Assembly: GCA_000320605.2 (NCBI GenBank)
Contig: KB445808.1
Span: forward strand, 62,001 to 126,000
DNA from: Gelatoporia subvermispora B
Lineage: Eukaryota > Basidiomycota > Agaricomycetes > Polyporales > Gelatoporiaceae
Reading direction: 5' to 3'
DNA length: 64,000 nt
The position numbers and the translations under genes were made by a program. Shown one piece after another: positions 19,384 to 61,700 of the stretch (within the stretch, counting starts at the first letter, position 1; every line of letters begins with the position of its first letter). The notes below the pieces were generated by a model. That model ran no database searches, was not told where the DNA came from, and saw nothing but the letters and a program-made list of their open reading frames with translations.

Positions 19384-22300
19384 CTAAGTTGCCTCTGGAA
19401 CAGAGATCTCGACTATCCTACACGCCGAAATGGCTCTCTGCCAGAGTGGCTTCGTCTGCAGGGTCCCTTGATTACCAACCACGATCAGACCCAACCTCGG
19501 CCTCGTCCATGCAACGTTCAGTCTCCGCGCATCTTCTAGGAATCCGATGTCACCTTCCGCATTTGAACGCACCGTCGTGAACACCACGATGTCTGCTTCA
19601 CGACCCTGAAAACCGTCAATTGTGCTGACGACGGCATCCAGGGTTGCCGGTATGGTCTGCTTGAGCAGTTGCACCTGACGTGAATATGGCGTCAGGATCG
19701 CAACCGAAACGCTCGGAAGGGTGCTTCCATCTGCTCCCTCTCGGGCGGTCCGCAGCAGCTTGAGGATGTGCCACGCAAGCTGCACCTGCCCTTCGTTGCT
19801 TTTCGACGAGCGCCCGTAGTCTTCCTCAGAGAGACACGGGACAAAGACCACGGGACACAATCTGTTCTCAACAGACGGCCACGGAAATGAGGAAGGTCCA
19901 AGCTGTGCGGTAATCTGTCCCTCTCTCGGCGTACCCGTACGCAAGCGGTTCTCATAGAACTCTTGCGAAGGGAAGCGTGCCACGTCTTCGGAGAACCTGT
20001 ACTGGACCTGCAGAATCGACACACCCTCGTCAGCCACTGATGCGAAGTACAAGAGATGGCTCTTACATCGAGCATGGTACGCGCCATGTTTCTATACGAC
20101 GGCCCAGTGTATAATCGTTCGAACAATGACTTGTCGAACTCAAGCGCTTTACCCATGTTTCTGACGGTGGGCCGTAGCTGAACGCTGATTCATATATGAC
20201 ATGTGAAGAAGTTCCAGATTATGAGAACTGCACACTCACTGGTCACCCACAAGCACAGCCTGGCGACACCCTTTGACAAGTGGAATCAGCGAACACGGCT
20301 CCGTGATTTGCGACGCCTCGTCAATTATGACAGTGTCGAACTCGAAATCGACGTGGCGTAGTAACCCTAAGCCAGCACCGGCGCACGTCGTGAATATGAT
20401 CCGCGCTTCCTTCATCCGTTTCTTCGCCTTGTCAAGAAGTCTCTGGTTTTCATTGATGCTCCCACCCATGCGTGCGTCCATAGTGTACTTCTGGAGGCTC
20501 TTGTTAACTCGTGAACTCTCGGTAGCTGCTCGGAGGATCTGTTCATCGGTAATGAGACGTTCTTGCTCATTCTCTCTCACGAAGCGTTCAAGGACATTGT
20601 CAACGGCTTTCGATACGACATCAGAGTATACCCGCAACGTACAGAGACGACTTACCATTGTGAGTGGATGCAGTCATAAGGATCCTGCATTCCGGATTTG
20701 TGCGCAGGAACCGAAGAAGAATCTGTACGACCACTGTCGTTTTGCCTGTACCTGCAGATGCAAGTGGCATTGAAGGCACTACGCGTATGGAAATATAGGG
20801 TAAGTCGCATACCTGGGGGGCCCCAAACCAACGAAAGGTGGCTGAGCTGGGCTGATAGAACAGCGTTGCGTTGGCTGTGATTCAGCGAATCTGGGAGGGG
20901 ATAGCCTGTGTCAGAGGTGTTGAGATGCGAAGCATCGTCGTCCTCTGTCACTTCAGCGGTCCCAAAAATGATATCGTTAAAGCCGCAACATTCGTATCCC
21001 ATCTCTGCGATTCGAAGGGTAGCGTCAAACATTGCTTTGGAGGTCGCGGTGCTCCCCGCATCGTACAGGTACCAATCCACTCTGTCGAATTCAGGCGGGA
21101 GAGGTTGCTGCACTTCAAGGTACAACTCGCCGCGATTTGCTCGCGTGACAATCGCATCAACCACGGCTGAGGGGACTGGTGGACCTTGCTGTGGAGAGGC
21201 GACTCGCAGGCGTACGTGAGAATGGATGCGGGCGGTAGTCTGAGCGTCGACGCGGATATGGGCGACCACCGTGATTTTGCCTTTTGCTTCAGGGTCAGCG
21301 GGCTCCTCAGGCTGATCTGCGGCTATCGCGCCTGTGCCTGAAGTTGGCTGCTCCGGCCCAGGTCCAGGAGCTGCACCGACATCCTCCGCGCGAGGTCGTG
21401 ATTGTTCGTCCGCTTTCTTCGGGGACGGCGGGACAAGCTTTGTCTGGATTGGCGCCTTTGACTGTCGTTTCGGCCTCCCGCTCTCGTCACACGGACAAGT
21501 GTCCGAAGCTTCTTCCGCTCGATCGAATACAATGGCCAATGCATGCTGATGCGCATACTCCAGCCTCCTACTTAGCGCGCGAATGTCGGAACGACACTCG
21601 TACAAGACTAACAGAAGCTCCTGGAAGAGCGCCGATGACCGCACATTGAGGGACGTCAACCAGAGCGCATCAAAGAAGCTCGTCAGGCTCAGTTGGTTGA
21701 TGTCGCTGGTGAGTTTCTCTAAGGCAACCAGCGAGGCGATTCCTAGGTCATTTGCGGAACGTATGATAGCACGAATGACGCTCCATGTCAACGCTGCGAT
21801 AGCCTCGGGTAAGGCCGTGAATCCGTCCGGAAGAAAGCGTTTCAGTATCGAATATGCTAACGGAGGATGCTGCTCCATGTAAAACTGAAGTTCATCCAGA
21901 TCTTGGCTGTCGAGAACAGATGTGAAGATCCAGAACAGCCGGTCTTCTGCACGATGCTGCAGAGCAAATTCGAAGTATTCAATCCTGTCTTTCCGGCTAA
22001 GGCTTGCCAATATCCTCTCCGCTTCTTCCTTTGAGCCTGTCTCGAAGAATTGACTCTTGATATCTTGTTCCGCCCATGGGTATGCGCGTAGGGTATTCGG
22101 TGTATATTCTTTCGGTTTCTGGTCGAACCGGCCGACATATTCCTCGGTTTGAACGCTGGGAAGTTTTGTTCAGTAGTAGTACAGGTTATATACATATACG
22201 CACTGTTCATAGCGAAGATCAAAGGCTTGATGGGCAACGCGGTCGCGGTTTGATACCACGTGGATCTCGACAGCGACTACCGGGGTGCGGTTAATGCGGC

Positions 22301-25300
22301 CGCATTGCTGACATCATGTGTCACAAGGTGTCGCAATGATGAGATGTGCAGACAATGTTTCACCTTCTGAACTCGAGCCGACATCTTCTGGAGAGCGATG
22401 CTAGTGATAACGTCTGTTCCTGAATTTGCAGGAGGACGAGTGATGAAAATAAAAGTGTTCCCTCGGGTCTGATCATACAGTTGCATGATGCTATCCCCGC
22501 AGTGCAGCCTGTATCCTTTGGTGCCGCGCCAATAGGTTGACATCATCCCAGACGCTTGTGGCATGAAAGAGCAAACGAGGACATTGTCGTTTAATTCCGG
22601 CTAAGCGGATGCGTATGTCGTCAGTATCTAATCGGATCGAATGCATGACTTCACGCTTGCTCACTTCTTCATCCCATGCAATTTCGCCTCTAAGAAATAT
22701 GCCCACAGCGAAACGATCGTCTGTCTCAAGGAGGCTTCAGCACGTCCTGAGTCATATGGTGATACGGAGACAATACCTTGAGAATCACTACTCTCCTATT
22801 ATAATTTTGTGTAGCTTCCTTAAGGTACTCAAAAAACGCCGCACGCCCTTGTTCCGAGGACGAGTACAAGCGCTGAAGGCGTAGAGGTCCTCCTAAGTTC
22901 CGATCCATGAGATCGCGAGCTTTGAGAATCTCGGAACGAGCAAGACTACCGAGCTTCAGTAACAAGATGATGTCTCAGGCAGAACGATCGACCCACCTAT
23001 TCCAGATGTAGGGGTGCTGTGACTCTGCGAGGTCATACTGCACCGTGAGTGCGTACTTCTCAGTAGTGGTCAGTGCCCCAAAGTCGATGTACGGCAGGTA
23101 CTCCTTGAAGTTGAGTTGGTGCTTCCGCGCGTATCTAGCTGCCATAGTAACGAGCTCGTACTCCGACAGGGCAGACTTTTCCATAGACATGAACCTCTTC
23201 AGGAAATCACGTGCCTCCGTGGTAGACATATCGGACGTCGCAGTGCGATCTGCTCGCAGTCGCGTAAACGAATCGAAAAATGCCTTGGCTTCCTGTTGAA
23301 GCAAATCGATGACATATGGAATATCAGTGGCCGGTGGAGAAAGTAGTCGTTCTGGGATCTTCACGGATCCGCCATCGACTACCATAGAGTGCAATGCATT
23401 GAGGTCTTGACACTCGTTGCTCATGGCGCCCTTGGGACTGGAGCGCAACCATCTCGAATGTAGCGCAACAATTTTCGCCAGCGACATACTGTTACATTGA
23501 CGAATTTGGGTGTGTTAGCTCCTTTCAAATACCCCATATGTTTATATACCTGTTATAAGACGCAAAATGTTTTGCGAGGTCTTGTCGTGTGATTTGTGTA
23601 GCTGTGTACTCCTTCCCGGGCGGATAGGTATATGACTGTATCAACATATACGTGAAGTATTAAACCAAGATGCGTGTAGATGCCACTTGCCTCTGCAACC
23701 TTCTTCGGCACCAAATCTGGGTCCCAAATCACCGCAAATCGGTCCCCGTCTGGCAAAGGCGTGTGTGTTGAAACGGATAGCAAGTATACTTTTGGGATTC
23801 GAGTTCTTACCTAAGTCGCCTCCTGAGCTCATCGATGGAGCTGCACGTTTTCCCTTCGAGGCGAAGACAATACAATCGACCAGATGCGAAAGACGCGAGT
23901 TAGACACAGCCCGTAATTTGAGACAATCTCCAGGATGTAGACATGGATTGCGAACGACCAAGAGATCGACGTTGGTCAACGTCGCTGCACCTCTCCCAGG
24001 AACCGAGACCCGCACGTGCACCTCGCCCTCGTTCAGGACGTCGTAAGGATCGCAGATGCCAAACAAGAGGCGAGACTTCAAGATCACCATTCGGGCGCGG
24101 AATTTCTCGTTCTTTTTGAATGAGGCAAGTTCTCTGTCCTGGCTTGATTGTATGGCCCTCTGGACCTGCGGACTGTCAAGCCCATCGAGTAAAACGCGCT
24201 CCGCATGATCATATTGGCCCAAGGCACATAGGAAGTTAAAGGCAACTTCCCAGTGGTCCGACGCCGCGCGTATCCATTCATGATACGCGCGTTGCTTTGC
24301 CAGGAATGTCTCGGTCGCGATGCCCAGACTTGCAAGCAACACAATCACATCGTTGTTCAACCGGCCAAAGGCGTAGGGCACGGAGTGGTCTACCACGGAA
24401 AACGTATCATCTTGTGTCGCCGTAAACTTCTTCTGGCTTGCGCGGAAATAAACGAGATGCTCCTCCTTGAGTTCAGGGTGGAGCATAAGGACTCCCTGTC
24501 GGTAGCTGCGTGAGTGGCTCGTGACAAGGGTCAGAACACGCGTCAGATTACCTTATATCCGCGGTACCTGTATACAGTAATCAGACGTATATAGTTTCAA
24601 AATGCAGAACAACGTACCTAATCTGAAAGACACATGGGGTATATGGGACGCCGTGGAATATGTAGCGCCTATGGCGGCTAACTTGCGTCGCGAAGCGCTT
24701 CGACATAAGGCCACAGCCATCAGAAAAGTTCTCTCCGTTCACGACAATATCATCGATGTCTTTGGTATGACGTGGATCCAGTACCCAGTCGAGCTCCGCT
24801 TGCGAGAACAGCAAACCAATGCGCTTGGCACCTGACGATAATCCTTGTCAGAGGAGTGTACAACGATAGCAGGTGCTTTGCCGTACGTTTTGCAGCTGTC
24901 ATGATCCTGTGGAAGTCGCCCAAGCTGTATATCTTCTCGTCCAGCTCATCATCCGTGTTTGCCTCACGCAGAAAGCAACCACGGGATCTCTGCAAGGATA
25001 GCATCAGCGAGGACCTTCATCATGGACTGAGGAACATGCCAATTGAGAGTTGCTATGACCGTAGAATCGATACTGAACGCCGTTCAGCATGAGACCCGCC
25101 TGAAACAAGCGTATCATGTATTCTCGTGCCACAGAGGGAGGCTTGTCTGGAAACCTCAGGGCCTCGAAGGAAGCGAGGATGAACTTAGACGGGTCGTCTG
25201 AACGGAGGATCCGATTGTTTGGGAATTGCGAATTGTCAAGTTTGATAGCATCGGGAGTAAATGATATATGTTTTCCATATATACGATCCTGTCTCCGCAA

Positions 25301-25675
25301 TTGCGGGAGCGTAGTGTTAAAGATCCAAGATTCGTCGTCGGGAGACGGGTTTGCACGCAGAATGATCGGTGCCATAGGGGCTGAGACATGACGAGGCTCC
25401 CGACATGACGAGATCTATATCATCCATCATCGAAGAATCGAGACCTCTCAGGGCGTCACGGGGGATCTCCGCAGTCAGATGCGGGGACATGCGGCAGGAG
25501 GAAGTCTTCCATGCCAAACCTTGAAGCGACAGGAGTTTGTTGGCGCCCCAGACGATGCTAGCTATGGATGAGCGTTGTCCTTACTCGGAGGCGCCAAGGT
25601 CCGGCGCTGAAAATATGCGCAGTCGTACTTAAGTGGTACGAGTATGCGCAACGAAACAAGGCTCTTCATCCCCAT
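19384..25675 (-). CDS. RNA-dependent RNA polymerase fused to an SF1 (Upf1-like) helicase
   Basis: Nineteen exons joined in one frame (1756 residues): 25585-25675, 25445-25519, 25040-25380, 24887-24989, 24618-24831, 24552-24567, 23811-24495, 23700-23749, 23550-23635, 22997-23488, 22777-22945, 22665-22724, 22364-22600, 22204-22307, 20813-22155, 20656-20751, 20240-20606, 20067-20184, 19384-20007. The first half is a eukaryotic RdRP: FSDGCGLMSKRFATQV, CVFQIRYRGYKGVLMLHPEL, catalytic DLDGD (507-511), SMSLAKIVALHSRW. The second half is a helicase: GPPGTGKT (1353-1360), DEAS (1483-1486), GDHVQLRP, LDVQYRFS, STIDGFQGREADIVVFTTVR. The usual long RdRP N-terminus is missing. One exon uses a GC donor (25039), and the junction after 23700 has a weak GTTGCA donor. 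Expected role: dsRNA synthesis and unwinding in RNA silencing. Confidence 0.8.
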
Positions 25676-27341: not shown

Positions 27342-30300
27342 ATGACCCTCAGACAACGCGCCGCAGAGCTGGTTTCCTCCGACGTCTCCCTCGATCTGTG
27401 TCGTATCTCTCTAGCAGAGGGACGCAATATCGCGGGGAAGTTGGCCGAATTCGAACCTGATACGTTGGGCATAGCTTGGCAGCTATCGCCAACGGGGCAG
27501 CTGGAAACGGTGGCGTTCGCTACCAGCTCCCGGGTATACGTGCTCTGTGGCGAGGTGTTGCGTGCCGAAGCCACTATCAAGAGTCTTCGAGAATTCTTGT
27601 CTGGGCCCCCAGACTACATTCTCGCTGGATTCAACATGGCTCGCCTCGCTCTGTACATCTATCGCGGGGTTGGATCACACCTGCAAGGGGTAGATCTCTC
27701 TACCTTTCTCTCTAAATCGACTAGAGAACCCTTATCGCCTGCCAGTGTCGTATACGAACGCATAGACCCTCGCGCAAATAGATCTAAGATCAATGCGGTT
27801 TGGCTCGATCGAGGCGAAACCAATGTCTCCCTTCGGGCATGGTTATCAGCATAGTGAGTATTGTCCGTACTGATTCGTGCAAACGCCAACGTATTTTCTG
27901 ATATTTAGCATCGCGGAGCGATTCCTAACTACAATTAAGAACGCTACAAGGGTTGATACCAGCCACTTAGAAGACAAAGAACTCCAATGCCTAGGTGACC
28001 TTGTAGTCAATCTAGATCTCCTCGAAGCCGCTGTACCTAAGGAGATGGAAAGTGATTTCGAGAGCATCAAGCTGGTGGATGGGCACTACACTCTGACAAA
28101 CGCTCGCTACAAAACGAGAGTACGCGCCAGTGAGCAGGTCTGTATCTTAGATCTGTTGATCTTGGGTCCGTAAGGTAATGATGTGCCTTGCAGACTGAAA
28201 TCATCATGGAGACATCGTGCGGGCGAAGCGTAGTCGGCAAGGCCGTCGGCGCCAACGGCAAGTCCACGAGAATCGCATTTCGGGGGCCACTCCACGGTGA
28301 CATCGATCTCAAGAGCGTTCGCGTTGTTGGACGGGAGGAGGCCACCAATGCGGAGCGGGCACGCGAGGAGTTCCTTCTGTTGCTCCTCCAAGGCCAGCTA
28401 TGGCTCCAGTCCTCGAACTTCATCCGACTGCTGTGGTTTCCCGAAGAGGACATCTTGCGACCTCTGAGCAAGCTGCTCACCGGACCCGATGGCCGTTTCC
28501 CGAAGCTGAACGATTCTCAAGCTACCGCAGCGGTCGCTATGTCCAACAATAACGTCCCTCTCGTGATTGTTCATGGTATTTCCTCAGTCCCATAATGCAT
28601 TACAATCGCTCAGCGGCGATGCAGGTCCTCCGGGAACAGGGAAGACGAGCACCATCGCTGCCGCAGTCGAGGAATGTACTAGAAGCGAAGGCAGCGCAGG
28701 AACGTGGATCATTGCCCAGTCGAATGTCGGTGTCAAGAATATCGCAGAGAAATTGCTATCCAGTAACATCGATTTCAAGCTCATCGTTTCAAAGGAATTC
28801 CATTTTGAATGGTGCGTCCTTCCACTCATGTCATTTGATGGAGCTTGATCCCCTCTGCTAGGCACGAACATTTATACACGGCTCTGGAGCATCATCTCAT
28901 CCGGTCCGACGACCTCGGGAGCGAGTTGGTCTCAACGGAGCGTCTATTAGGCGCATCTGAGACCATCTTGTGCACTTTGAGTACTCTGTCGAATCCGGTA
29001 CTCGATAGCTCCGGAGTATATCGTGCTGTACCTGTGAACAGACTGATAGTTGATGAAGCCTCCCAGATCGACACATTTGAGTTCATGGTCTGTCTTTTTA
29101 TCCATCCGATGTCCTACTATCAATTCTGACGATTTCTCGCTTAGCATCTCTTCCACAAATACAAAAGTTTGCAGAAAGTGTGTTTGTTCGGTGATCCCAA
29201 GCAATGTACGTTTTTTGCTGATGATGATAACAACAATGCTCACGAACCCTAGTGCCTCCGTATGGTCAGGAGACCGCACCCGACATGCGAAGTATTTTCG
29301 AAATTAAGCATCTGCGTCCTTACGCATACTTCTTGAACGAACAATGTACGTGTTGATCTCAGCACACAGCGAAAATTATCGCCCAGTTGTCACCTTCCTG
29401 CAGCTCGTTGTAGTAATGCTTTGCCCTCAGATCGTATGCCTACACCCTTAGGGGATTTCATCTCTGAAGAGGTGTACGACGGTAAACTCCACTCCAAGCA
29501 CGCAATTTCCGCTTTTTCCTCTGTCGCTTTTATCGATGTCAGAAAAGGCCAGGAAGGTCAAGGACGTAGCAAGGAGGTAATTCACATGATCGCTCTACTC
29601 AATTGCGCTGAACACAGGCCCGGGATTAATTCGCAGAATATCGAGGAGGTACACGCCGTCGCCAACCTCGTCAAGGAATACTACGCAAAGAAAGAATTTT
29701 GTGTCATTACACCTTATGATGCCCAGCGCAAGGCTATACAGGAAGCGCTAAAGAGAGAAAACCTCCGATGGGACACTGTGTACAATGTTGACAGTTTCCA
29801 AGGTTTGTATCATGCCACTGTAGACATCGCGGCGGTTGACCCAATATTCCTGCGACAGGGCACGAGGCGGAATACGTCATAGTATCAGTCGTGCGAACAT
29901 CTGGCGCCGGGTTCTTGAAGTCAATGCGCAGAATGAATGTCATGCTCACGAGATGCAAGAAAGGCATGGTTGTGGTGACGAATCAACAATTCCTGCGCTC
30001 AGCCGGCGCGGATACCCTCTTGGGCAAATTGGCTCGATACTGGGTGTCGCAGAATGGTGCCTCCGCCACCTGGACAGACTCGCGACGCATCATCAATCGT
30101 GAAGCGGACATGCCTGGAGTCCCGGGAAAGGGCATTCTCATGCATGCGGTAGACACACAAGGCCGGCAGGCGTCGGTGTCGCAGGTACAATCTGCCACTC
30201 CAGTACGTACGAACTGGACATCGTTAGCTGCCGCCGCGCGGGTTCGACAGGAGCCCGACCTTGACACGCTGGCGGAGGACAATTTCCCCGTCCTCCCAGG

Positions 30301-55772: not shown

Positions 55773-58700
55773 TTACGCAAATGTATTGTTCTTCCTCTTG
55801 CGGCTATCTTTCTTGATATTATTGCGCTGTTGCTTCCGCTTGGCAGCAGCCTCGGGATTTGTGGTAGCCTGCGCGAGCACTTTAGAATATCAATCCGCAC
55901 TATCGGTTTGAGGGACGTACCAGCACAATTCGTGCATTTCGGCGCTCTCTGCGCAGACCCTGCACGCTCTGGCGAATGCGGTTGTACACAGTCGCGAACT
56001 TGGTCGTTCCGACCTTCGCTTGAACAAGGTCTTGTAGTTCAACCGCCAATGCCTTGAGTTCCTCTGGCAGCATACCCAATGTAAGAATGGCATCAGCAAT
56101 CGTCCACAGACTTTACTCACCCATTTGGGGGTCGCGGATGGTATCATCCTCAGTAACCCGGTATATCGGAGACAGTATATGCATCAAAAATCGTTCAACC
56201 TGGCTCGCATCCATGTACGAAACCATAGCTGCGAACCACTTGAGCACAGCCATTGGCTCGTGGACCCAATTCGCCTAGGAGCCATAGGAAGTCAGCGCAT
56301 TCAACGCAAACACGGCATTCATTACACACCGGAGCAGAGGCTTTGTTGCGCCGTGCGATGTGAGCAGACCGTGCCTGATATGATAGTTTCGAGAACAACC
56401 AAGGTAACAGTTGCTTCTCTCCACGAGCATCTTCCTGTTCGCTTTCGCTGCCGTCCTCATCTGCGTCCTCATCCGCATCTTCATCCGCGCCGCCCCCTTG
56501 CTGCTCTTCATCGACGTCCGTTCTACTAGTCGTTGGTTCTGTCGGGTCCGCAAGGCAGATGCATTTCCCAGCGTAAAACAGATTCTTTACAATCTGCAGG
56601 CTGAGGGCGTCGTCGAGATTGGGGCTCCGGAGTTGCAAGCACAGCTTGTTGGTGACGTCCTCCATACCCGCGGGGGAGAAGGGCGACGTCTCAGGCAAGT
56701 CCGGCTGAGGAGCTGCCGCAGGGACTACAGAAAACAATGAGCCGAGCAACCGGCAAGAGGCAGTGCGCGTCCATGCATGTGGGAACAGGAGATGCGCGAC
56801 GACGACGGGCCATTCCACCTTGTCCTGCTGGGACGTAAGCTCTGGCATGACCCGCAGAAGCTTGGACGTGACGCTAAGCGCGTGGTATGATATCTGCCAT
56901 TCAAGCTCGTGTTCTGCAACGTCAGCATCCCCATCCTCCGCTGCTTGCTCGAGTAGGGTCGCACTATGCCTCAGGGCCCCGTTCACGTCCTCCAGGATCA
57001 AGTTGGCATATATTGATACGTCTTTCTGCAACAGATCGATGATAATCCCATAGATCTGCGACGAGACACGGGCCAGTTGCGGTTGAGAGTATTGAACGGC
57101 CCAAGCGTGGATATGCGACATGACGACGTTGCGCTGGGAGTCTTCCAGACGTGCGAACAAGCTCTTGATCAGCTCCGCAGCCATCTCCCTGCACTTGGCC
57201 GAGTCGTCGTTGGCTATGACCATGACCAATGCGACGAATAGCAGATCCGAGTATTCCCGGATGAGAACTACCTGGAACTTGGAGATGATCGCGCTTAGTA
57301 GCTCCATGACAGATTTGCGGCCGCTTTCATAGACATAGGAGAGGTTTTTCGCCAAGAAAGTCATCTGTTTGCGGAGTCGGCCCTTGCCTTGTGGGTAATC
57401 CAGAAGGAACTGAAGCAAGACGCCACGACATAGCTCCTGTACCTGGGGAGACTGGCTCGTTACCATCACTTCAGCGACCTTGTCCATCATGTCGTAGATT
57501 TCCGGCACAACGAACTTGCGGGCGACGATGGCACGCAGCATGGTAAAGACCGAGGCTTGGCGGGTCGGGTCCTCGAGGTCCGGCGAAAGAAGCTCTAGCA
57601 GATAAACCAGGTCCTTCTCTTTGACTTGAGCGTCGGGCTGTTCCCTGAGTATAATGGCAAGAGACTTGAACGCAGTTTGAACGACCTCGGACTCGGTCGT
57701 GCCTTGCTGCTTGATGATGTCGATGATCTGACGAATGAATACAGGAAGAGACTTCGGGACATTCTTCAGCGGACACCTCAAGATTGCAGCGGCGGCTCTC
57801 ATGCCCGGAATGACAACCTGCATCTGGTTAGAATACAGCGTGTTTCCGATGACGGTAACCATGGGCTCAAGTCGGGCAATAATCTTCGAATCCTGGAAGT
57901 CGAACCGGCTCCTGCGATGCGCAGTATTGAACAATTCTAGTCCAAACGCGATGAACCTGAAGAGCACACATTAGCTCGTCTTTGACGCACGGAAGTCCCG
58001 GCGTACCTGAAGGAGTTGTTGGCGTAATGGTCGTTTTCTTGATTAACTTTCCGCTTCATCTGGATTCCTCCTATATCCTTCTCATTGCCATCCCTCTTCG
58101 GCACATTCTTCAGGAACTTCGCGTTCTGGCTGATGAGAGTATGGCAAAGAACCAGAAGTTCGGCGGGGACGAGATGCTCGTTGGCGTTGAGGCTGCCAGC
58201 GATTCTCCGCAGGAGGTCGTCGACTTGCTGAAGCATCTTCAACGTCTCGGTTTCCTTCAAGATGTTACGAATTGGGAGTAGCAAGTTGCTGATCTTGGAA
58301 GGAGTGATATACTTTGCAATGATCGCGAACGAATCAAACCCTTTGGAGGACGACGACTTGACCTCGCGGACCTTCGTTTTGAACCCTTCAGCCTGAACAT
58401 CCTTACCAGACTCCCCGAAGATCACCTCGGCGGACACGTGGGCGACATCGTTCACGCAATCATCCAAATTACCGAACTGCGAGGCGGACTCTCCTGATGT
58501 TACGTGGACGAGTAATGCGTGGGTGACGAAAGCCAGGATGTGAAGATGCGGCCCTCGAAGCAGAGCAGCGCGCAACTCGCGGAGGATGATCGGAAGGTAT
58601 GAGGGACCCAGAGTGACTGCGATACGGCAGAGTGTTTCCCGCGTCAGATCTCGTGTCTCCTGTGACTTACTGCGGAAGACTTGGCTGAGAATCGTGAGCA

Positions 58701-61700
58701 ACCGGGAGGTCTGCGCTTCCCGGGGCTTCGGAGGTAGGTGCTTCGCGACTTGTACTATACCGATGGAAATGGGTATCCTGAGACTGTCTTCATTCTCATC
58801 ACGCTTCTCCAGGTGATGCAGGAGGCTTGGAAGGAGACGATTGTTGACCGCATCTTCAATCCGAGCTGCTTCGGGAAGCTTAGCAGGGGCGAGTAAATCC
58901 GCCGGTGCGCTGGCATCAGCTTCAGTTGCGTCGAGGACCTCTTGTTCAGCGTCCTCCGATGGCACGTCTTGCTCCACCGGCTTTTCCATCGAAAAATGGA
59001 AATTGTCGAGTATTGCTACTAGGGCACGGATGTACACGCGTTCGGACGCATCCTTGAGCCTCGAGAGCTTGAGATACGATTGAACCAGAGCAAAGTACGC
59101 GCCCCAGTTGAGATGCCGAGCCATCTTGCCGGTCGTGATGATCGCTTCGTTCACGAGGTGGTGATCAACGGTCGCGGTGGATGTGATGAAGTTCCCAACA
59201 AGCGGAACAAAAATCTCCGCCAACGTCGTGCTGCGAACTTGTCCGCTATCGCAATGTTCAGCCAACCTCCTCAGCGCTCGTGTGCGGCGGTGGATTTGGA
59301 CATGGTGGATGTTGTTGAAGAAGTTGGCTTCATCGTCTCCGCCAGCGAGCAGCGGCCGCATCTCCTGAAGAGAAGCTATGCGATCGCATTTCGCGACCGC
59401 ATGCGAGATGACGCTCAAGATCTCCGCACGAACCAACTCGTTCTTGGAACGCAAGCCGTTCCTGAGTCCTGGCCACAGTACTTTCGTGAAGGTGATCTCG
59501 TACTCCACATCATCTGATTGAGCCACAACGTCGGTGAAGCGCTTCAGCGTGTGGGCCGCGTTGTTGCGTATGGTCAGCTCCACCGGATCTTGAATGAAGC
59601 TGAGCATGTTGTACAGGATCGGTAGCCAATGCTTGCTCGGCAGTAAGCTATACGACGTCTCATTCAGCTCGGTGAACGCTCCCAGCCGTCGATCAAAGTC
59701 CGGCTCCTCCATCCTCTTGCGGGAATACGCGTTCAACGACTCCATCAAACCCGCCAGAGGGCGCAAGGATTCGGCAGCGTCAGCGAGACACCGGAACGCA
59801 GCAGCCAGGGCAACACGTCCTTGCCTCGACCGCAACGTCTGGAAGAGCAAAGATAGCAGTGCGAACGTCCTCGTGTGGATTGAACTGCTGACGTCCGCGA
59901 GGTCCGGAATGAGGGGGAAGAGATTGTTGAGAATCTTCACCATGTCGACCTTGGTCTTCTCCGGGACAACCTTCGACGGTTTCCGCAGTAGCGGGAGGAA
60001 TAGTCCGAGCAGCGTGGCAGCCTGTTGCGAGTCTTGCATGTACGGCGCAAGCTCCGACAGGATGCTGATCTGTCGCCGGCCGAGGGTGTCGGCTACCGTT
60101 GCAATACCCTTCGTACGCTCGACCAAGATAGAGATATCAGTCAGGAGCCGAGAGACATCAGGCTTCAGAACGCCCTCTAAGACTTCTGCGTCCGCCACAG
60201 ATAAGGCGAGGAGGTTGTCCACAACGTCGAACACCCTCGAGATGACAGTCGGCTTGACATTAGTCGCGATCAAGCAATCATAGATCTTCGGCAGGGTGCG
60301 CTTGTCGTACACAACGAGGAATCGGACATATTCCTTCCGTGAGGACCAGACGAAGAACAGCTCGAGCAGTGCTGAAGGTGCTTGCGTATTCTCCAGATCG
60401 AGCGATGGAATTCGGGGTGAGATGAGCTCCCGGAAAGCAGTGGGCATGTAAGGTGAGAAGTCGTACTCGACAGGGCACCGGAAGAAGTCTGCAAACCGCT
60501 TCAAGCCGAGTTGGCGGATAGTTCGCGCACCACGGGTAGTCCCTGCACTCTCCTCCGCGTTTTCCTCGTCCTCCGCATCGGCTTCTGCAGCCGGTTCGGC
60601 GTCGGCGTCGGCGTCAACCTGCTTCTGGGATGCAATGCGAGACTGAGCATTGGCCATAAGGTCCAGTAGCGTCCCAAGAAGAACAGGCCAACGGGGGACC
60701 AAGCGTGACCCGAGGTGCTTCATGACATCGCCGAGCAGAGTGAGGAAACCAATCTGCTGCTTATCCGAGACCTCACCAGAAACCGGTCGGATGTTATACT
60801 CCCCGTCCACATCCATAGCAGTGTCCTTGCTGATGGGTTGCAACATGAGGTCGACAAGGAGCTGCAGCTCGTCATCAGTACAGCCGCCCAGGGCCGTTAG
60901 CACAGCGGCGCGCCGATCGGCGCCGCGCGTGCGACCACGTTTCTCGAGCATCAACCCGAAGAGCAGCCTGATGACCACATCGACAAATTCTTGCCTATCC
61001 TTCTCCTCGAGCTGGGTAATGTCCAGCTGAGTGAGCTCGTCCCGCCATCTCGTGTCGTCTAAGAGGACGTGCAGGGTGTCTTCGCGCGAAGCTAGTCGAG
61101 GGGACTTGTATGTGAGAAGGCAGGAAAGGGCGAGTTTCTGCAGGGAGCGGTCCGGATGCGAGAGCAGGGAGATATAAATGGACCGCAAGATCTCCGTGGA
61201 GCGGAGTGCCTTCGGGTTGACGAACTTCGAGAAGAGCGTCAGCCAGGAGCTCATCTTGTGGCGCGGCAACTTGGAGTCGGCTTCTGGTCCACCCAAAGAG
61301 AGGAAGTGAGGGACCAAGTCGCGACTGTGCTTTTCCGCCAGGGACGAGTTGACTCCCAAAGCAGACATGACCTGCGCCTCGTAAGTGACAGGGTCGAAGC
61401 GATCGTCGAGGTCCTGCTCCTAAACGCATAGTCAGCGGACAATCACAGAGTATGGCAGCTATTCGCATACTTTTATAACTGCACGCTTTGCGCTGTCTCC
61501 GCGCAGCCACCTATTCACGACACAGCGTGTCTTGTGTGCACTAGGGTCCCTCCACGTCTTCTCGTCTTCCCACACGTCGTCCTCCTCTTCTTCCTCGTCC
61601 TGCGCCCACCCCGGACAGACAAAGCTCGAGCCCGAAGACACACTCTTTAGCTCCTCAAACATCAGCTGCCACACCAGGTCACCGAAGCGTTCGGCAAGGG

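Follow-up and report, generated by a model that had tools for sequence, protein, structure and literature searches.

Polymerases that carry a second RNA-directed engine in the same chain have been described in a few lineages, most closely in Fusarium. F. graminearum FgRdRP5 (FGSG_09076) consists of an RNA-dependent RNA polymerase (RdRP) followed by a DEAD-like helicase domain at residues 1277–1478 and an AAA domain at 1475–1677 (PMC4515635, PMC11237814), and its deletion reduces ascospore discharge to 47.6%, with a shared role of the protein in exonic small interfering RNAs (siRNAs) (PMC11237814). F. fujikuroi FFUJ_03638, one of five RdRPs, likewise combines RdRP and ATPase domains (PMC11130915), and the amphioxus (Branchiostoma lanceolatum) protein BL02069 combines RdRP with AAA_12 (PMC6396948); both were compared by described domain content only, the latter being an animal protein. 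Dictyostelium RrpA-C and oomycete and cnidarian RDRs also hold RdRP and DEAD-box helicase in one chain (PMC4791657, PMC3661229), but there a superfamily 2 helicase precedes a gamma-type RdRP. In Schizosaccharomyces pombe (Rdp1 and Hrr1) and Neurospora crassa (SAD-1 and SAD-3), an RdRP is likewise accompanied by a superfamily 1 (SF1) helicase, but as separate proteins; Hrr1 is of the ZNFX1 type, being regarded as orthologous to ZNFX-1 (PMC9276528), and has been grouped with SAD-3 and Mucor RnhA (PMC5384783). Here we analyse a gene on the minus strand of a 64,000-nt stretch of Gelatoporia subvermispora B (contig KB445808.1, 62,001–126,000 of the forward strand; “the window”, to which all positions refer) that encodes an RdRP with a C-terminal SF1 helicase of the AAA_11/AAA_12 kind. 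We consider it likely that this gene represents, in the Polyporales, an old Dikarya family, that of FgRdRP5, whose proteins run without a break from a plant-RDR2-like RdRP into a Upf1-like SF1 helicase of a subfamily of its own, a motor that would act in cis during synthesis of double-stranded RNA (dsRNA) for siRNAs. The observations behind this view are a single frame, intact catalytic motifs, a conserved linker that is predicted to be folded, the same join in both phyla and the presence of a separate ZNFX1/Hrr1-type gene in the genome.

The fusion is of a known kind, printed for Fusarium in 2015 and 2024; the question whether such fusions are catalogued, left open by a preceding reading of this DNA from its letters alone (the sequence-only reading), is answered by the Fusarium reports (PMC4515635, PMC11237814, PMC11130915) together with automatic annotations in many basidiomycetes. 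No description of it in any basidiomycete was found in the literature searched, which covered few subscription papers and no supplements: a survey of four RdRPs of the basidiomycete Sanghuangporus (807–1198 aa) names RdRP domains only (PMC9769868), RdRP accessory domains are undiscussed in the available parts of the funRNA survey (PMC4290597), and those of PMC7763443, PMC6572790, PMC13136243, PMC6145500 and PMC8385953 do not mention the fusion.

The gene model was built from genomic DNA and homologues, in a first pass as a codon-only model without anchors and then as a second model anchored on peptides chosen by eye, in which four junctions were shifted by hand. The spliced frame is stop-free from the RdRP through the helicase and contains 15 short introns, with GC donors at introns 1 and 5 (Table 1). 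The sequence-only reading had joined 19 exons into 1756 residues from a start at 25675. Its unbroken frame stands, while its N-terminus had to be given up: the column of Met1 (25375) holds Met in 65 of the 87 listed homologues of at least 1550 aa and a gap in 14, and 77 of the 87 have no residue upstream of it (1 to 40 in the other ten), for which reason the exons up to 25675 are probably non-coding, leaving 16 exons and 1700 aa. The DLDGD motif is present, renumbered by the corrected start from residues 507–511 to 448–452, and GPPGTGKT, DEAS and QYR were all found as described, the first of them split by an intron. A hidden Markov model scan of the spliced product, proposed earlier as a check, matched all expected domains far beyond chance, with PF05183 (RdRP) at residues 53–537 (E 3.3e-95), AAA_11 ending at 1461 (E 1.9e-44) and AAA_12 at 1471–1673 (E 8.1e-47); AAA_30 and AAA_19 matches begin at 1276 and 1280, and the helicase core at about 1276–1690 matches the C-terminal helicase and AAA coordinates of FgRdRP5. 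The N-terminal DEAD-box and helicase-C domains of the DEAD-box RDRs (Dictyostelium, oomycetes) were absent in the Pfam scan, the protein beginning at the RdRP, and Rfam returned nothing at gathering scores. With 141–153 bits against plant RDR2 versus 56–57 bits against QDE-1 (SAD-1 and RRP-3 were outside this comparison), the RdRP half appears to be plant-RDR2-like.

That the two domains belong to one protein is indicated in the first place by exon 12, whose 1343 nt are open without a break from the linker behind the RdRP to the GPPG of the P-loop, bearing out the earlier statement that no stop separates the halves. A whole-protein search yielded 218 proteins at E ≤0.001 among 7991 scored; of the best 120 of these, which were listed, 104 carry RdRP together with AAA_11 or AAA_12 and 16 RdRP only (our count of precomputed Pfam domains), so the same architecture, sought as a check on the fusion, does recur in basidiomycete proteomes. 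The closest of the matches listed, the automatically annotated Obba rivulosa protein P0001, has the same domain order at 76% identity over 100% of the length. Regional identities over aligned residues are 0.87 for the catalytic part (12% gaps), 0.80 for the following region, 0.84 for the beta domain (22% gaps), 0.74 for the helical linker and 0.50 for a disordered region, then 0.79 and 0.85 (helicase core); the linker therefore evolves as part of one protein. For the predicted exon-12 model, Foldseek matched nothing at E ≤0.001 and the VIA-align rows lay mainly over the C-terminal half, so that the alpha-solenoid is left without an assigned relative. The join is also crossed by single open reading frames (ORFs) on database contigs, P0031 with 1756 aa, P0052 with 1543 aa and P0095, whose 1720 aa lie on a contig of 5416 bases. 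As the window gene has 15 introns, we tentatively take these for spliced transcripts. Of 161 family models, 95 begin in the RdRP half and reach at least residue 1650. These findings bear directly on the idea of two adjacent genes, RdRP and helicase, being misjoined. The unanchored codon model did prefer a helicase-only gene beginning at Met945 (21878), and several public annotations hold two models; Met945, however, is Met in only 29 of the 87 listed long homologues, a start there was rejected, and given the open exon 12 and the join-spanning models, a misjoining is hardly credible. The fusion seen by the sequence-only reading is real, with the same join in relatives.

The matches listed include members of Polyporales, Boletales, Agaricales, Russulales, Hymenochaetales, Auriculariales, Sebacinales and Cantharellales, with P0070 as the copy of Coprinopsis cinerea. 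Searches with either half alone, limited by protein length, added ascomycete members from Trichoderma, Dactylella, Aspergillus and Fusarium clavum. RdRP C-terminus, linker and helicase lie in one model in P0138, P0144, P0147, P0155 and P0166, with P0144 covering residues 456 to 1699 in one ORF; ascomycete members other than FgRdRP5 share 27–44% identity with the window protein where they match it. Ascomycete and basidiomycete members group together, apart from the other sequences sampled, in the helicase-core tree (SH-aLRT 99) and in the RdRP-core tree (SH-aLRT 97), and both halves appear to share their descent with the ascomycete fusions. These are quick trees whose comparison rows were found by likeness to the window protein, with FGSG_09076 outside the sample and the RdRP tree containing a single named ascomycete; they show that the members form one family, not where this family stands among helicases at large. 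The helicase-core tree has very long branches, and rows P0145 and P0164 stand beside the basidiomycetes, outside the ascomycete clade. Two further members, P0130, filed under Acaulospora colombiana, and P0169, filed under the willow Salix suchowensis, probably stem from other fungi in the samples.

The proposal that the helicase half corresponds to the Hrr1/SAD-3 partner, judged here with ZNFX1 as the representative of that type, was not supported. With the family profile run against solved structures, Upf1 scored best (305–310 bits), followed by Sen1 (243–253), SMUBP2 (248), DNA2 (203) and ZNFX1 (175), and the fused helicases form a clade of their own (98/99 in one tree, 93/99 in a second). 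A separate Upf1 gene on contig C5 groups with Coemansia Upf1 (100/98); the CH domain (UPF1_Zn_bind) and UPF1_1B_dom, both detected in Upf1 P0202, were absent from the fusion at E up to 1. The genome also holds a separate ZNFX1/Hrr1-type helicase gene, L030 (G000:C6:948500–955500), which pairs with human ZNFX1 (100/99) and whose joined exons score 140 bits against human ZNFX1 and 58.5 against the window protein. Because it is this C6 gene that pairs with ZNFX1, the fused helicase is not the ZNFX1 orthologue. The C6 gene has many introns and, by eye, a Cys-rich tail, and its ZNFX1 Pfam domain stays below the cut-off (E 0.0059). Genome searches with AAA_12, NF-X1 and the ZNFX1 domain returned no ZNFX1-type locus (in one of them the control genomes were silent too), and a 60-residue ZNFX1 query found only Upf1 (46 bits) and the fused gene (43 bits) with any strength. 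A 237-residue query placed the same two first (51.4 bits each) and added three adjacent C6 exons (33, 21 and 19 bits), in a region also matched by AAA_11; a genome lacking a ZNFX1/Hrr1-type helicase was rejected on the strength of L030. A merger of the Rdp1–Hrr1 or SAD-1–SAD-3 partners into one chain has in its favour that both helicases, Hrr1 and SAD-3, cooperate with RdRPs (PMC13136243, PMC9276528). The approximately unbiased (AU) test did not reject fused and ZNFX1 helicases as sisters (p 0.226 and 0.278 in the two trees), nor fused plus Upf1 (p 0.174 in the tree that gave 0.278 for ZNFX1); when sequences were compared pairwise by BLAST, the stretch of human ZNFX1 scored 114 bits against the window protein and up to 127 against ascomycete members, slightly higher for several fused members than for three Upf1 rows (87–109). 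With ZNFX1 scoring under Upf1, Sen1, SMUBP2 and DNA2 and a ZNFX1-type gene of its own on C6, we nevertheless hold such a merger of partners to be very improbable.

In the fused polymerase as we envisage it, the RdRP would convert selected transcripts to dsRNA for Dicer and siRNA production, and the helicase, held by the beta domain and the alpha-solenoid arm, may load on the same RNA, where its motor might remove bound protein, separate strands, or make template and product available again. The pairing of nsp13 with the coronavirus RdRp serves as a working analogy only; nsp13 does occur among the fold matches. One type of RNA interference (RNAi) polymerase of mushroom fungi would thereby carry its own RNA motor, through a join shared by ascomycetes and basidiomycetes, and this motor would not be orthologous to the Hrr1-type helper already known. 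The role of a helicase in dsRNA synthesis could then be tested in a genetically clean way, by point mutations in one gene instead of two.

Several points weigh against this reading. The G. subvermispora gene is known here from genomic sequence and homologues only. Among the family models, 66 of 161 end early, some public annotations split the gene in two (Tephrocybe H0H87_008442/008443, Termitomyces C0992_002473/002474), a gap of 54 residues interrupts the junction stretch 725–960 in 6 of the 87 listed long models, and gaps take out 12% of the RdRP and 22% of the beta region in the Obba model. None of the listed ascomycete models holds both catalytic centres: P0166, P0144, P0155, P0138 and P0147 begin after DLDGD, and P0261 (Aspergillus multicolor) is the RdRP half alone, with DLDGD present. 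The ascomycete FgRdRP5 is likened by description, its sequence (FGSG_09076) being outside the comparison; Foldseek puts Dna2 level with Upf1 (2.1e-16 and 2.2e-16); and the parts of the literature consulted report no enzyme activity for any family member. The direction of the motor is itself inferred: by the rule for the Upf1 family it probably runs 5'→3'. RdRPs read their template 3'→5'; a motor on the template would accordingly approach the polymerase instead of leading it, and on the new strand it would trail. Starting at the template 5' side, it may push or strip; alternatively, it may act on the new strand. Work at that end of the template or on the product is therefore more probable than simple clearing in front of the polymerase. 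From the earlier idea that dsRNA synthesis and the clearing of template or protein are coupled in cis, the tethering of both activities remains, and simple clearing in front becomes less likely. Finally, roles in rRNA processing or nonsense-mediated decay (NMD) have also been considered for FgRdRP5, ribosome biogenesis being enriched among the genes down in its deletion (PMC11237814). This, and the Upf1-like character of the helicase, would fit a fusion acting outside RNAi, for instance in RNA quality control or rRNA processing by a Upf1-like logic, which we regard as unlikely given the missing UPF1 CH domain, the separate Upf1 gene on C5 and the effect of FgRdRP5 on exonic siRNAs (PMC11237814).

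A peculiarity of the family models concerns the exon that encodes most of the P-loop. Nineteen of the 66 early-ending models stop at GPPG or after a short read-through behind it, inside Walker A (a scripted count gave 20, from which P0113, ending one exon later, was removed), and exon 13 is precisely skipped in 7 of the 87 listed long models, joining GPP to AVDNVLERF; length and score limits bias the sample behind these counts, which consists of protein models only. The Obba model lacks the TG of the P-loop and reads GPPGKT, probably through use of the next AG as acceptor. Together with the length of exon 13, 96 nt, and its phase 1 on either side, these figures could mean that the helicase is often turned off by splicing at this exon, much of the protein being an RdRP with a non-working helicase arm. 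Gene finders, however, often miss small exons, several of the skipping models also lack the DEAS stretch and so seem to be poor models, models end at other introns too, and the P-loop is intact in the full-length ORFs P0031, P0052 and P0095, so that we give this interpretation very little credit. The combined donor and acceptor score of intron 12 is among the better ones, hence the splice signals do not mark it as weak; a CTRAY branch match is missing in 8 of the 15 introns, intron 12 included. Missed small exons account most simply for the lost exon 13. It would be a long shot to propose the in-frame exon as a conserved splicing switch, inclusion giving an RdRP with a working motor and skipping or intron retention one with a dead or missing motor; if true, one gene would make two kinds of silencing polymerase in mushrooms. 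Whatever the cause, the helicase half can escape RNAi surveys and automatic annotation, since quite a few models end at this exon or leave it out.

Table 1. The RdRP–helicase gene and its parts, in window positions; residues refer to the 1700-aa model.
Feature	Position	Strand	Details
Whole coding sequence, RdRP–helicase fusion	19384..25375	-	16 exons, 1700 aa; ATG 25375, stop 19384
Exons 1–6	25375-25040, 24989-24887, 24831-24618, 24505-23811, 23749-23691, 23635-23550	-	spliced model
Exons 7–11	23488-22997, 22945-22777, 22724-22665, 22600-22364, 22307-22204	-	spliced model
Exons 12–16	22155-20813, 20751-20656, 20606-20240, 20184-20067, 20007-19384	-	spliced model
RdRP catalytic part, exons 1–6, residues ~1–498 (Pfam RdRP 53–537)	23550..25375	-	
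Catalytic DLDGD, residues 448–452, split by intron 4	23742..23817	-	DLDGD in 84 of 87 listed long homologues
Beta-rich domain behind RdRP, residues ~726–852	22204..22703	-	mean identity 61% in 87 homologues
Exon 12, single, 1343 nt: linker and helicase start	20813..22155	-	gene model; fold predicted
Predicted alpha-solenoid linker, residues ~884–1071, 14 helices	21498..22061	-	ten-residue blocks mostly at predicted local distance difference test (pLDDT) 90–98
Beta-barrel at the 1B-domain position of Upf1, Sen1 and IGHMBP2, residues ~1146–1220	21051..21275	-	
Walker A GPPGTGKT, residues 1297–1304, split by 61-nt intron 12 (20812-20752)	20738..20822	-	
Exon 13, 96 nt, phase 1 at both ends; most of P-loop and motif Ia	20656..20751	-	
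Remaining SF1 core, exons 14–16: DEAS, QYR, motifs V and VI; AAA_12 1471–1673	19384..20606	-	

Elsewhere in the window, the minus strand carries a UTP20 ribosome-biogenesis gene with two long ORFs (56198-61419). Next door to the fusion, on the plus strand (27342-30202), lies a second, very different SF1 helicase gene (AAA_12 E 4e-34), whose N-terminal ~170 aa have no Pfam match and which has two look-alikes, by eye, on contig C30 of the same genome. Further SF1 helicase genes stand in a tandem of three at ~651–661 kb on G000:C12 (L015, L017, L019), presumably MOV10/SDE3-like as judged by their motifs. On G000:C7, at 1.588–1.600 Mb, a helicase that we take, likewise by its motifs, to be IGHMBP2-like lies ~10 kb from a Piwi-domain match.
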